NCBI GenBank assembly: GCA_019800895.1
Contig: JAHVKF010000004.1
Span: forward strand, 1 to 64,000
Direction: 5' to 3'
DNA: 64,000 nucleotides
From: Halomonas denitrificans
Lineage (GTDB): Bacteria; Pseudomonadota; Gammaproteobacteria; Xanthomonadales; Wenzhouxiangellaceae
In this document: positions 25,718 through 29,753 of the stretch, in pieces
Layout of the letters: each line of letters begins with the position of its first letter
Numbering within the stretch: the first letter of the stretch is position 1
Notes under the pieces: model-generated
Database searches by the model: none
The model's input: the letters and a program-made list of their open reading frames with translations, nothing else
What the model was told of the DNA's origin: nothing
Program-made: the position numbers and the translations under genes

Positions 25718-26053
25718 TCAGCCGCCCATCAACTCCACGATCGGCCAGAAGAAGAACCCGAGCACCACGACCGCGACGATCACCGCCGCGAGCAATCGCA
25801 TGGGGTCGATCGGCCGTCGAGCGTTCCCGGCGTCCGCGCGGGCCCGCGCGGTGTACTCGTCCTGGAACCGGTCGAAGGCGTCCCTGGCCCTCGGGTACTC
25901 CTCGTTGTCGCGGATCCAGATGCTGCCCGCGCTCAGGCCGAACGCGGTCGGCGGGAGCTCGTACCAGTCCACGCCGAGCTGGTCGAGCATCGTCCGCACG
26001 CCGTCGGCTTCCTCGGCGGGAACGTGGCGCAGGTTCATCAGTCGTCGTGCCAT
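25718..26053 (-). CDS. Small membrane protein (DUF6164-like)
   Basis: A 111-aa protein. The N-terminal ~70 residues resemble the small alpha/beta signal-transducing-type domain of the DUF2007/DUF6164 kind (MNLRHVPAEEADGVRTMLDQ; WYELPPTAFGL). A C-terminal TM helix (LLAAVIVAVVVLGFFFWPIV, about 88-107) anchors it in the inner membrane. Function is unknown. A TACAAT -10-like hexamer on the minus strand (26065-26060) lies so near ATG 26053 that the transcript may be almost leaderless. Divergent from the borosin-type operon. The family name is from memory. Confidence 0.75.
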   Translation of the reverse strand: MARRLMNLRHVPAEEADGVRTMLDQLGVDWYELPPTAFGLSAGSIWIRDNEEYPRARDAFDRFQDEYTARARADAGNARRPIDPMRLLAAVIVAVVVLGFFFWPIVELMGG

Positions 26054-26218: not shown

Positions 26219-26431
26219 ATGGACAACCTCACCAAACTGCTGGTCGACCTCGGCCGCGATGCCGAACTCGAAGCGCGCTACCGAAGCGATCCCGACGATG
26301 TGCTCGCCGAGTACGAGGTGTCCGACGAGGCGGCCGAGGCGATGAAGAACGGCGACCTGGATGCGTTGCGCAAGCTCAGCGGGCTGGACGAGCTGCGCCT
26401 GACCAACTCCACGGTCAAGGCCTACCGCTAG
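26219..26431 (+). CDS. Putative split-borosin (LigA-like) RiPP precursor peptide
   Basis: A 70-aa peptide. Residues 1-55 form an acidic, all-helical leader of the LigA-like/NHLP-type fold (LTKLLVDLGRDAELEARY at the start, PDDVLAEYEVSDEAAEAM in the middle) that ends in KLSG. The 15 residues after it (LDELRLTNSTVKAYR) are the candidate core. The layout matches SonA, the free-standing precursor of the Shewanella split borosin, in size, helical leader, LSG-like junction and short beta-branched C-terminal core. The RBS AAGGGAG is well placed. The same operon encodes a tetrapyrrole-methylase-fold enzyme, the expected N-methyltransferase partner. Family assignment is by recognition of pattern and context, not by alignment; core methylation is inference. 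Confidence 0.72.
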   Translation: MDNLTKLLVDLGRDAELEARYRSDPDDVLAEYEVSDEAAEAMKNGDLDALRKLSGLDELRLTNSTVKAYR

Positions 26432-26448
26432 TCCCCTTCGGCTCGCCC

Positions 26449-28206
26449 GTGCCGCCCCTGCTTACGTTCGTTCTGCTGGTCGCCCTGCTGGCCGGTGGGA
26501 CGCTGCCGGCGTCTGCGGATGCCGGACTCTCGACGCGGATCGATGCGATCGAGCAACTGCACCTCCAACGGCCATGGCAGGAATCGCAGAGCGCGATCGA
26601 CGCCCTGCGAGCCGACGGCCTGGACGGGGCCACGCCCGACCAGCGGGCGCGGCTCGACCTGATGGAAGGACGCAATCTCGTGCTCGCGGGCCGCTTCGAC
26701 GATGCCATGGATCGCCTCGATCGCGTGCTGTCGCGGCCCGTCGGCATCGACCTCAGGCTGCGGGCACTCGAGCTGGCGGCCAATGCGGCAGGCATCGACC
26801 AGCAGTACGCGCTGGCCTTCAATTACCTCTACGAGGCCCTGAAGCTGTTGCCGGACGCGCGTGACCCCGGCGCACAGGCCGGCCTGCTGGTGCTGGCCGC
26901 CCGATTCCACTCGCTGGCCGGGGAGCAGGGGCTGGCCATGGACTACATTTCCGAAGCGCTCGCGGCCGCCGAGGACAGCGGCGATGACCGGACCCGGTGC
27001 TTCGCCGAGCAGGACCTGGTCTTCCAGCAGCTCCGCGTCGGCCTGGCCGACGCCGCCTCCGAAAGCGCGGATGCGATGTGGCAGAGCTGCCAGGAAAGCG
27101 GCGACCCGGTCCTGCAGGGAACCGGAATGATGGCGATGGGCGCGGCGCTGCTCGAGGCCGGTCGCTTCGACGAGGCCGTCGGCTGGCTGGAGCGGGCCAT
27201 CGCGCAGCACCGCGCCGGCGAGTTCGCCGTGGGGGTGGCCGAGTCGAGGTACTATCTTGGCCGCGCGCTGCTGGCGGCCGGCGATGCGGAAGGCGGAACC
27301 CGGCGCCTGCTCGATTCGGTGAGCTACTTCGAATCGCGCGAGGACTGGCAGAGCCTGATCGAGCTGCACGCGACGCTGGCCGACTCCTTCGAGCGTCGCG
27401 ACATGCCGGGGCGGGCGCTCGACCACCTGCGCGCGCAGTTCGAGGCCGATCGGCGCTTCAACGACATCCAGCGCAGCCTTCGCATCGCCTACCAGCAGGC
27501 CGAATTCGAGAACCAGCGGCAGCAGCAGGAACTGGCCATGCTGCGGCAGCGCAACGAGCTGTTCGAGCTCGAACGCCAGGCACAGACCTCACGCCAGAAG
27601 GCGAGGACCGTCGCCATCGTGATGGCGGCGGTGATCGGGGTCCTGCTGATCGGCCTGCTGATCCGTTTCCGCGCGGACCGGCGGCGCTTCCGGCGCCTGT
27701 CCGAGCGCGACGGCCTGACCGGTCTGCTCAACCACAGCCGGTTTCATCGAGCGGCCAGCAGGGCGCTGGAGCACAGCCGCGAGAACGGACGCCCGTGCAC
27801 CCTGATCGCCGCCGACGTCGACCTGTTCAAGCAGGTCAACGACCGCTTCGGTCACCAGGCCGGTGACGCGGTGTTGTCCTATCTCGGCCAGCTGCTGAGC
27901 GACGTGTTCCCGCCGCCCGGCATCGTCGGACGCGTCGGCGGCGAGGAGTTCGCCGTGTTCCTTCCCGACCAGAATCGCCTGCAGGCACGGCAGCGGGTCG
28001 AGGACCTGCGCCGGCGGCTGCGGCCGGTGACCGTGGGCGATTCGTCGATCGCCGTGACCCTGAGCTTCGGCCTGGCCGAGGCGCGGCGCGAGCGCCGGCT
28101 GGAACGGTTGCGGTCGCGCGCCGACGACGCGCTGTATCGGGCCAAGCGCTCCGGGCGCGATGAGCTGATCGATGCCGCCGAACTCGCCGACGGCGACGAG
28201 CCGTGA
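26449..28206 (+). CDS. Membrane diguanylate cyclase with periplasmic TPR-like sensor
   Basis: GTG 26449, 17 bp after the precursor stop, gives 585 aa. A signal peptide or signal anchor (residues 1-24, ending SADA) precedes about 350 residues of helical TPR-like repeats in the periplasm. A coiled coil rich in Gln and Arg leads to a TM helix (VAIVMAAVIGVLLIGLLIRF, about 386-405). The cytoplasmic GGDEF domain (about 418-575) has RDGLTGLLNHSRF, the metal-binding DVDLFKQVND and an intact catalytic GGEEF in GRVGGEEFAVF. It should make c-di-GMP in response to an envelope signal. No RxxD inhibitory site is evident immediately upstream of GGEEF. Its TGA overlaps the methyltransferase GTG, which ties it firmly to the RiPP-like locus. 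Confidence 0.88.
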   Translation: MPPLLTFVLLVALLAGGTLPASADAGLSTRIDAIEQLHLQRPWQESQSAIDALRADGLDGATPDQRARLDLMEGRNLVLAGRFDDAMDRLDRVLSRPVGIDLRLRALELAANAAGIDQQYALAFNYLYEALKLLPDARDPGAQAGLLVLAARFHSLAGEQGLAMDYISEALAAAEDSGDDRTRCFAEQDLVFQQLRVGLADAASESADAMWQSCQESGDPVLQGTGMMAMGAALLEAGRFDEAVGWLERAIAQHRAGEFAVGVAESRYYLGRALLAAGDAEGGTRRLLDSVSYFESREDWQSLIELHATLADSFERRDMPGRALDHLRAQFEADRRFNDIQRSLRIAYQQAEFENQRQQQELAMLRQRNELFELERQAQTSRQKARTVAIVMAAVIGVLLIGLLIRFRADRRRFRRLSERDGLTGLLNHSRFHRAASRALEHSRENGRPCTLIAADVDLFKQVNDRFGHQAGDAVLSYLGQLLSDVFPPPGIVGRVGGEEFAVFLPDQNRLQARQRVEDLRRRLRPVTVGDSSIAVTLSFGLAEARRERRLERLRSRADDALYRAKRSGRDELIDAAELADGDEP

Positions 28207-29024
28207 CCGGTGACGCACGAGTGGCCGCGGCAAGCGGTGAACTCGTGGTGGTCGGCTGCGGCATCCAGCTCGGCCGCCACATCTCGCGCCGGGCCGAGTC
28301 CGAAATCCGCGTCGCGGACCGGGTGTTCGCGCTGGCCGACGCGTTCGCGATGGACTGGCTGACGTCGATCCGGCCGGATTGCATCGGCCTGGGCCGCCAC
28401 TACCGCGAGGGGTCCAGGAATAACGATCGGCGCGATGCCTATCGGGCGATGGAGCGCGAGCTGGTCGACGCGGTGCGCGATGGGGCCCGGGTCTGCGCGG
28501 TGTTCTACGGCCACCCGGGCGTATTCGCCGACGTGCCCCACGGTGCGATCCGGGCGGTTCGGGCCCTGGGTCTGCCAGCCCGGATGGAGCCGGGCGTCTC
28601 GGCTGAAGCCTGCCTGTATGCGGATCTCGGCCTCGACCCGGGCCGCTCGGGGGTGCAGTCGTGGGAGGCGACCCAGTTCCTGGTCCGGGACTGCCGGCCG
28701 GACCCGTCGAGCCTGTTGATCCTGTGGCAGGCCGCGCTCGTCGGCGACCTTTCGCTGACGCGGTTCCACGCCGAGCCGGCCGCACTGGCCCTGCTGGTCG
28801 AGAAGCTGACCCGGTGGTATGAACCGGACACCGAAGCCGTTCTCTACGAGGCCGCGCAGTTACCGATCGAGGGCTTCCGGGCCGAGCGCATGCCTCTGTC
28901 CGGCCTGCCCCGAGCCCGCTTCAAGGAATACACGACGCTGGTGGTGCCACCGGCGCAGGACGCGCCGGCCGATCGCGACTGGCTGGCGCGGCTCGGTGCC
29001 GCTCCGGACGCGTTGGACGGGTAG
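28203..29024 (+). CDS. SAM-dependent methyltransferase of tetrapyrrole-methylase fold; probable borosin alpha-N-methyltransferase
   Basis: A 273-aa protein. The N-terminal VVVGCGIQLGRHIS is the SAM-binding strand-loop. Tyr67, Arg76/77 and Tyr80 in HYREGSRNNDRRDAYRAM resemble the Tyr/Arg set that borosin enzymes use for backbone amide N-methylation. YGHPGVF (102-108) matches the conserved segment of OphMA/SonM-type enzymes. EPGVSAEACLYADLGLDPG (from about 137) is also typical. It is not CobA/CysG-like: no such neighbours or fused domains are present. GTG 28203 overlaps the GGDEF stop. The likely job is iterative N-methylation of the peptide at 26219-26431. An alternative reading is a generic tetrapyrrole methylase with an unrelated substrate. 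Confidence 0.78.
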   Translation: MTGDARVAAASGELVVVGCGIQLGRHISRRAESEIRVADRVFALADAFAMDWLTSIRPDCIGLGRHYREGSRNNDRRDAYRAMERELVDAVRDGARVCAVFYGHPGVFADVPHGAIRAVRALGLPARMEPGVSAEACLYADLGLDPGRSGVQSWEATQFLVRDCRPDPSSLLILWQAALVGDLSLTRFHAEPAALALLVEKLTRWYEPDTEAVLYEAAQLPIEGFRAERMPLSGLPRARFKEYTTLVVPPAQDAPADRDWLARLGAAPDALDG

Positions 29025-29167: not shown

Positions 29168-29605
29168 TCAGCAGTCGCCGGTGCGCTTGCCGGAAATCTC
29201 GACCGACATGGTCATCGACCCCATGGCCGAGTCCATCTGGCCGTCGACCGTGCCCGACATCGTGTCGCCGTCGAAGGACATGTCGGCGTTCATGGTCATC
29301 GCACTGCCGTCCGGGCTCGGACAGGTCATGGTGAAGCTCATGCCGTCGGCGCTGATTTCCTTGTCGGCGACTTCGCATTCCTCGTTGTCGGCCAGGAACG
29401 CTTCGCCGTCGCGGATGTCTTCCGGCGTGATGCAGTTCGACTCGGTCTGGGTCTGCGGCGGCATGGAGCCTTCCGGCATGTTCGGGATATTCAGCGAGAC
29501 CGTGCTGGTGGTTTCCCACATGCCGGGCTCGATGTTGGGCTCCTGGGCCACTGCGGAAAGGGAAAGGCTGGCCACGGCCACTGCGGTCAGGCTCTGCTTG
29601 AACAT
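29168..29605 (-). CDS. Secreted DUF3617-type protein
   Basis: A 145-aa exported protein. The signal peptide (1-21) ends AVAQ. The mature part begins with the PGMWETTSTVSL strand typical of DUF3617 and has four cysteines (two near CITPEDIR and CEVADKE, one in TCPSPDG, one terminal). Met-rich beta strands alternate (SFTMTC, AMTMNADMSFDGD). The RBS AAGGAG before ATG 29605 is strong. Function is unknown; the family is periplasmic. Confidence 0.82.
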   Translation of the reverse strand: MFKQSLTAVAVASLSLSAVAQEPNIEPGMWETTSTVSLNIPNMPEGSMPPQTQTESNCITPEDIRDGEAFLADNEECEVADKEISADGMSFTMTCPSPDGSAMTMNADMSFDGDTMSGTVDGQMDSAMGSMTMSVEISGKRTGDC

Positions 29606-29753
29606 AGAGAATTCTCCTTGAAGATCGGACCGCGGCGGCCGATCAGGCCGGGCCGCGGGTGAAGGCACGCCGCGCGAACGAGCGCCGCAGTGCAGTCCCC
29701 AGAATACGCGAATCCGCGCCTCGGCGTGCCGGTCCGGCCCATTGTCCAACCGA

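Follow-up and report, generated by a model that had tools for sequence, protein, structure and literature searches.

The closest described relative of the system reported here is SonM–SonA of Shewanella oneidensis, in which, according to the sections of the founding paper available to us, SonM adds α-N-methyl groups to the C-terminal core of a leader-docked SonA precursor (PMC8429565). No type IV borosin pathway had been tied to a final product when that paper appeared, as stated in the same sections, and its main text, supplement aside, does not mention GGDEF (PMC8429565). The portion of a review of borosin types IV–X that was accessible to us likewise mentions no cyclase (PMC11285071). In the part available of a 2024 paper, the word GGDEF occurs only in the legend of Figure 1, where the domain is named among borosin types (PMC11395268). 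Here, we describe a locus of Halomonas denitrificans (contig JAHVKF010000004.1, the window being the whole 64,000-nucleotide stretch analysed) in which genes for a SonA-like precursor, a membrane TPR-GGDEF protein, and a SonM-like methyltransferase lie adjacent on the plus strand at positions 26219–29024 (Table 1). Judged by sequence and by predicted fold, the locus is a type IV-like split borosin operon, and it is a member of a broad group of borosin loci that are tied to receptor-like signaling proteins.

The locus shares with SonM–SonA, as described in the available sections of that report, a discrete methyltransferase, four active-site residues, a separate precursor of about 70 residues, and a five-helix leader (PMC8429565). 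It differs in core sequence and in gene order, which is precursor–cyclase–methyltransferase here and methyltransferase–precursor–cyclase in Shewanella. The GGDEF borosin type, which can be compared through its figure legend only (PMC11395268), is probably the fused form that we see in 42 of 120 relatives, whereas in the window the cyclase is a separate, overlapping gene. The initial annotation knew of no description of a cyclic di-GMP (c-di-GMP) synthase placed between a borosin precursor and its methyltransferase; given this legend, the pairing is not wholly new. For the separate-gene operon, the Shewanella partner, the cassette duplications, and the kinase swaps described below, we found no account in the literature searched, outside of which the type-defining papers lie.

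The three genes are tightly packed. The peptide open reading frame begins with an ATG at 26219 and ends with a stop codon at 26429–26431, encoding 70 residues of which 15 follow a KLSG motif; 17 bp separate it from the GTG of the GGDEF-protein gene at 26449, and the TGA of that gene (28204–28206) is overlapped, as GTGA, by the methyltransferase GTG (28203–28205), whose own frame closes with a stop codon ending at 29024. These coordinates match the spacing and overlap with which the locus had first been annotated. The set stands isolated and operon-like, preceded by a divergent DUF6164 gene and followed by a convergent DUF3617 gene. A promoter scan of the locus returned no sigma-70-like site, and the single match of a terminator scan is at chance level.

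The peptide had been proposed to have the make-up of a split-borosin precursor, and both sequence and fold bear this out. Residues 2–56 match SonA chains at E 3.9e-6 with phmmer. An AlphaFold model, for which the window precursor was aligned with 61 of 74 selected homologues (62 precursors in all), shows five helices (residues 3–13, 15–23, 25–31, 36–44, and 47–54) at a mean predicted local distance difference test (pLDDT) score of 77, with a disordered tail (pLDDT <50 at residues 63–70). When this model was submitted to Foldseek, ranks 1–25 were all SonM–SonA entries (probability 0.99–1.00). The best E-value is 0.013 and none is ≤0.001, the domain being small, yet the ranking is uniform. Leader-only SonA chains reach a target TM-score of up to 0.91 at a root-mean-square deviation (rmsd) of ∼1, and chains with a tail superpose at an rmsd of 7–8. 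An identity as a LigA dioxygenase subunit was considered and set aside: the Pfam LigA model scores 19.3 bits, under its gathering threshold of 25.3, and LigA comes at rank 26 of the Foldseek list, after all SonM–SonA entries. Leader positions L4, L11, L17, D46, and G55 are invariant or nearly so in the 62 aligned precursors, and relative to the nearest homologue 32 of 55 leader residues and 12 of 15 core residues are identical. Taken together, sequence and model predict a type IV layout, in which the precursor has a gene of its own and consists of a five-helix borosin-binding leader and a C-terminal core.

SonM is also the first match of the methyltransferase in a phmmer search of solved structures (E 1.8e-74, residues 12–271), followed by fungal OphMA-type chains at E 3e-36 to 1e-30. 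SonM residues Y58, R67, Y71, and Y93, which the available sections of the founding paper report as mutated and assayed by Miller et al. (PMC8429565), correspond to Y67, R76, Y80, and Y102, such that all four are kept. The Pfam assignment of the enzyme is PF00590 (TP_methylase), a label that would also suit a cobalamin or sirohaem methylase encoded beside an unrelated small protein, with no borosin involved. We regard that reading as hardly credible: the best NCBIfam match, precorrin-3B C17-methyltransferase, reaches 16.5 bits against a cut-off of 391, the affinity to SonM is strong, and the model of the adjacent peptide is that of a SonA leader. By its sequence, the enzyme is a predicted discrete methyltransferase of the SonM/OphMA family that retains the assayed active-site residues, and the pair fits the SonA/SonM plan first suggested for it.

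Sequence, Pfam, and model agree with the earlier description of the middle gene as encoding a membrane GGDEF protein with a TPR-like, predicted periplasmic sensor. Pfam identifies a GGDEF domain (2.9e-35) along with weak TPR matches, and the AlphaFold model (mean pLDDT 94.8) contains a continuous helix from residue 320 to 419. From the signal peptide-like start of the protein and its transmembrane helix, which has positive charges on the GGDEF side, we predict a periplasmic TPR part and a cytoplasmic GGDEF part. We aligned the protein with 57 of 85 selected homologues and two orphan paralogues, leaving out loci with a degenerate GGDEF motif; D456, D458, K461, N464, D465, D473, K566, and R570, which we take to be metal or GTP binders, are invariant in all 60 sequences. 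With a GG(D/E)EF motif and these catalytic residues, the protein is a predicted active cyclase. An RxxD inhibitory site is absent from its GGDEF domain as read from the sequence. Two TPR cysteines, C184 and C214, are also invariant in the 60 sequences, in linked and orphan proteins alike, which suggests a disulfide.

TPR superhelices are familiar from Rap–Phr and other RRNPP systems, where the receptor gene lies beside the peptide gene and the receptors are cytosolic, with a helix–turn–helix (HTH) or Rap-type effector part. In VIA-align, residues 22–347 of the window protein match APPBP2 (Z 27.2), Rap receptors with pheromone (Z 23–25), and LGN (Z 24); the matches to Rap structures with peptide span about 307–320 residues at an rmsd of 4.7–5.4 (PDB 8rsu, 4gyo). 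What the window protein shares with these receptors is the superhelix. It is set apart from them by its signal peptide-like start, its transmembrane helix, its predicted periplasmic sensor, its GGDEF output, and a peptide that is expected to be N-methylated; a Pfam scan of the protein returned no HTH family, and the cytosolic HTH or Rap-effector layout is not present.

How widely the cyclase and borosin genes are linked was assessed in relatives drawn from named genomes (80 of 162 retained), the family (20 of 43 genomes with a match), Shewanella and Ferrimonas (74 of 96), the order (207 of 398), and the class (15 of 369, with several that just reach the threshold). Twenty Shewanella/Ferrimonas loci and 20 order loci were hand-picked from longer lists, and 9 of 17 listed class matches were used, with the weakest dropped. 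Once duplicates across collections are removed, distinct methyltransferase sequences with flanks number 120. A TPR-GGDEF protein lies beside the methyltransferase or is fused to it, on the same strand and within 4.5 kb, in 97 of these, and the precursor sits directly upstream of the TPR-GGDEF frame in 95 of the 97, wherever the methyltransferase is placed; the other two are cut by a contig start. In four more of the 120, a 7TMR-DISM GGDEF gene lies upstream of the precursor (Pfam-checked in three), with a flavin amine oxidase between the two in the loci read. The 23 cases without TPR-GGDEF comprise these four, eight cyanobacterial loci, five paralogues with 1.5-kb flanks only, four loci at contig ends (L057, L069, L090, L110), one with a kinase (L061), and one with neither on the strand (L094). 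The order sample adds 20 further loci, in all of which precursor and TPR-GGDEF adjoin the methyltransferase, one precursor match being weak (L207, E 0.02). A search of this genome with the GGDEF protein of the locus gave 28 matches in 3.21 Mb, from which we calculate that a random gene should have ∼0.04 same-strand GGDEF genes within 4.5 kb, versus 97 of 120 observed. The linkage exceeds chance. We note that the 97 cases are not independent draws, given the common ancestry of the relatives and their retrieval by way of the methyltransferase.

The arrangement is thus not peculiar to the window, as the initial annotation might have led one to expect; the synteny survey it proposed shows the trio recurring across many genera, with precursor homologues next to such enzymes. 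It extends to Shewanella, where a locus whose SonM is 99% identical to the published enzyme (L183) has methyltransferase, precursor, and TPR-GGDEF all present. Six other Shewanella loci (98–99% SonM identity, 1.5-kb flanks) show the precursor and the TPR part, with the GGDEF region beyond the flank, and the same holds for all 30 Shewanella-family loci with 1.5-kb flanks. At the class level, L226 also carries a precursor and TPR-GGDEF.

The state of the GGDEF motif bears on whether the cyclase serves mainly as an inner-membrane or polar anchor for methyltransferase and precursor, c-di-GMP synthesis being incidental. The locus does persist with a degenerate motif in L185, L194, L197, L199, and L201, as a scaffold would allow. 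However, all 42 fused TPR-GGDEF frames and 67 of the 73 separate ones preserve the motif (counted with duplicates; the other six are changed), and we hold a pure scaffold to be quite improbable.

The locus group also varies in ways that suggest what the sensor may do. In L209, L213, and L214, extra precursor–cyclase pairs lie beside a single methyltransferase, as expected for ligand–receptor pairs. In both L061 and L225, a histidine kinase and receiver follow the same TPR domain at the N-terminus (phmmer matches to the window TPR part, 1e-25 and 5e-28); L227 likewise has TPR then kinase, its more distant TPR part being found by profile only (8e-26), and L225 has a TPR-GGDEF gene in addition to the TPR-kinase. 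The common element across the loci is a sensor with a signaling output. Conserved anchors are present in the core as well, where a pattern drawn up after the alignment was inspected fits 57 of 63 clade precursors. Cassette duplication, retention of the TPR part when outputs change, these core anchors, and TPR folds known to hold peptides make the peptide a likely input of the cyclase.

We therefore favor, tentatively and at somewhat less than an even chance, a split-borosin signaling operon in which the peptide controls its TPR-receptor cyclase. The methyltransferase would methylate residues near the precursor C-terminus (TNSTVKAYR), and the methylated core would be released and then exported or leak out of the cell. 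In the periplasm, this core would be read by the TPR domain of the cognate cyclase, and c-di-GMP output would change as a result. The peptide would serve as an autocrine or intercellular signal, its receptor being encoded alongside and the methyltransferase acting as its maturase. The initial annotation had raised the idea that an N-methylated peptide and c-di-GMP signaling belong to one circuit. Of that idea, the coupling of borosin and cyclase is well supported, by conserved synteny, fusion, and cassette duplication, while the circuit itself, with its direction and the binding of the peptide, is what we infer.

The variety of sensors (TPR-GGDEF, TPR-kinase, and 7TMR-DISM GGDEF) is also what recruited regulators would show, and information could flow the other way, with the TPR domain sensing an unrelated envelope cue and c-di-GMP or a phosphorelay gating production of an ordinary bioactive or matrix-associated borosin. 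Three cyanobacterial loci, which have TPR proteins and a Ser/Thr kinase instead (the kinase seen by domain search in two), agree with this. Duplication of precursor–cyclase cassettes and fusion of cyclase to methyltransferase would be unusual for a mere regulator, however, and the 14 largest neighbor clusters include no other biosynthetic gene that is general; we consider such a reverse flow unlikely. The cyanobacterial loci in question (L091, L100, L106) contain a methyltransferase, TPR proteins, and a precursor with a DPxPDPLPDPDP-type tail, and the Ser/Thr kinase, which carries an AAA domain, was found after the precursor in L091 and L100. The cyanobacterial TPR proteins match the TPR profile weakly or not at all, and the residue equivalent to SonM Y58 is Asn in all eight cyanobacterial enzymes of the tree.

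Fusion of the cyclase to the methyltransferase, seen in 42 of the 120 distinct cases, falls in one place on the methyltransferase tree (120 rows): the 42 fused rows group with two truncated ones in a single clade of 44 (support 99/93) that branches from among the separate-gene loci. The enzyme of the window is placed with that of a Wenzhouxiangella (74% identity). Arrangement labels change 14 times on the tree, versus a shuffled mean of 66; gene order shifts repeatedly, while the linkage mostly stays. Such a fusion could arise from an arrangement like the GTGA overlap in the window.

The fusion is at the cytoplasmic end of the cyclase and puts both enzymes in one protein, which suits the main rival to the peptide as input: an intracellular methyl switch, in which the precursor is never released and its methylated tail, held by the methyltransferase, toggles the cyclase from the cytoplasmic side. 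SiaC and SiaD of Pseudomonas, which are encoded together and regulated by phosphorylation, not backbone methylation, and have to our knowledge no TPR sensor, offer a parallel. There, the small protein SiaC activates the cyclase SiaD, much as this switch would require, and SiaD–SiaC is the first Foldseek match of the window cyclase, over its GGDEF part (PDB 7e6g). A further precedent is RcbA–RcbB of Vibrio, where, in the sections of the report available to us, a TPR-GGDEF cyclase is likewise under an adjacently encoded partner: the TPR of RcbB restrains cyclase activity, and RcbA relieves this repression; it differs in being predicted cytoplasmic and in having a TPR protein as the partner, and those sections mention no methyltransferase or RiPP (ribosomally synthesized and post-translationally modified peptide) precursor (PMC12282931). 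In L061 (1916–2467, one contig), the receiver domain of a response regulator is fused to a leader resembling that of a precursor, beside the TPR-histidine kinase and a borosin methyltransferase. Among the 14 neighbor clusters, no exporter or peptidase is general, although longest-frame calling may miss genes in GC-rich DNA. An intracellular switch would, however, not need the conserved sensor, which is predicted to be periplasmic and is retained when the output changes, and we judge the switch rather doubtful.

Several observations weigh against control of the cyclase by the peptide, beginning with the lack of a general exporter or peptidase just noted and the five linked loci with a lost GGDEF motif. 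Variability is greater in the core than in the leader (mean 1.87 vs 1.49 bits over 63 clade precursors). Covariation of the core with the TPR part does not stand out from shared ancestry: over 94 cassettes the rank correlation of the core is 0.60 with TPR, 0.50 with GGDEF, and 0.54 with the methyltransferase, and in the clade of the window (61 cassettes, excluding L111 and L112) it is 0.73, 0.73, and 0.78, respectively. No TPR residues distinguish 34 precursor-linked from 6 orphan TPR domains. Orphan TPR-GGDEF proteins without an upstream precursor occur as the first of tandem pairs (L034, L076, L087, L114, L121, L125), and this genome encodes two orphan paralogues without a precursor. The likeness to Rap receptors gives a weak hint and does not prove that the ligand is a peptide, because TPR superhelices look alike; the non-Rap proteins APPBP2 and LGN score as high, and Rap is not singled out. 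Finally, a TPR or GGDEF partner is missing from six of the nine more distant loci at the class level, two of these six having an MFS transporter downstream, and no GGDEF gene is in reach at any of the eight cyanobacterial loci. The cyclase link characterizes one large section of the borosin family without extending to the whole.

Other genes recur near some of these loci. This genome holds a second split-borosin pair on another contig (L006: 9018–9221 and 8184–9014), with its own precursor and a methyltransferase 43% identical to that of the window; upstream of the pair is a 7TMR-DISM GGDEF gene, separated from it by a flavin amine oxidase frame, and L130–L132 are similar. Flavin amine oxidase genes are found near six loci of this paralogue clade. 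GNAT acetyltransferase genes occur near ten loci (L191:5472–5990 and nine others) of a second subfamily, whose precursors have long acidic tails. Genes for S9 prolyl-oligopeptidases are found near six loci in two lineages (L127:4984–7119, L081:1714–3888, and four others), two of the six being contigs of one genome. The pathway of omphalotin, itself a fungal borosin, reportedly uses a peptidase of this kind, OphP (PMC12235650).

Table 1. Features of the split borosin locus and its flanking genes in the window
Feature	Position	Strand	Basis or remark
Borosin precursor gene (70 aa)	26219..26431	+	phmmer to SonA; AlphaFold/Foldseek
Predicted borosin-binding domain (leader), residues 1–55	26219..26383	+	Aligned to SonA leader
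Candidate core, residues 56–70 (LDELRLTNSTVKAYR)	26384..26428	+	End disordered in model
Membrane TPR-GGDEF protein (585 aa, GTG start)	26449..28206	+	Pfam, AlphaFold
Signal peptide-like N-terminus, residues 1–24	26449..26520	+	Hydrophobic stretch ending ASADA, read by eye from sequence
TPR superhelix, residues 22–347, predicted periplasmic	26512..27489	+	VIA-align matches
Transmembrane helix, residues 387–407	27607..27669	+	Read from sequence; positive charges on GGDEF side
GGDEF domain, residues 420–571	27706..28161	+	Pfam; GGEEF at 497–501
Split borosin α-N-methyltransferase (273 aa)	28203..29024	+	SonM/OphMA matches, PF00590
DUF6164 gene	25718–26053	-	Divergent neighbor
DUF3617 gene	29168–29749	-	Convergent neighbor

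A sensor–output partner that is conserved across genera, including a near relative of the Shewanella model, points to a signaling role for split borosins, and this role can be tested in an organism that is easy to handle in the laboratory, Shewanella. It is possible, if doubtful, that many bacterial split borosins are N-methylated pheromones rather than antibiotics, read by periplasmic Rap-like TPR receptors with exchangeable outputs, such as c-di-GMP synthesis or a histidine phosphorelay, and encoded in peptide–receptor cassettes that share a fusible maturase. If the signaling role is true, split borosins could provide a class of ligands for TPR-GGDEF sensors, and RiPP chemistry would be tied to the c-di-GMP control of biofilm and motility.

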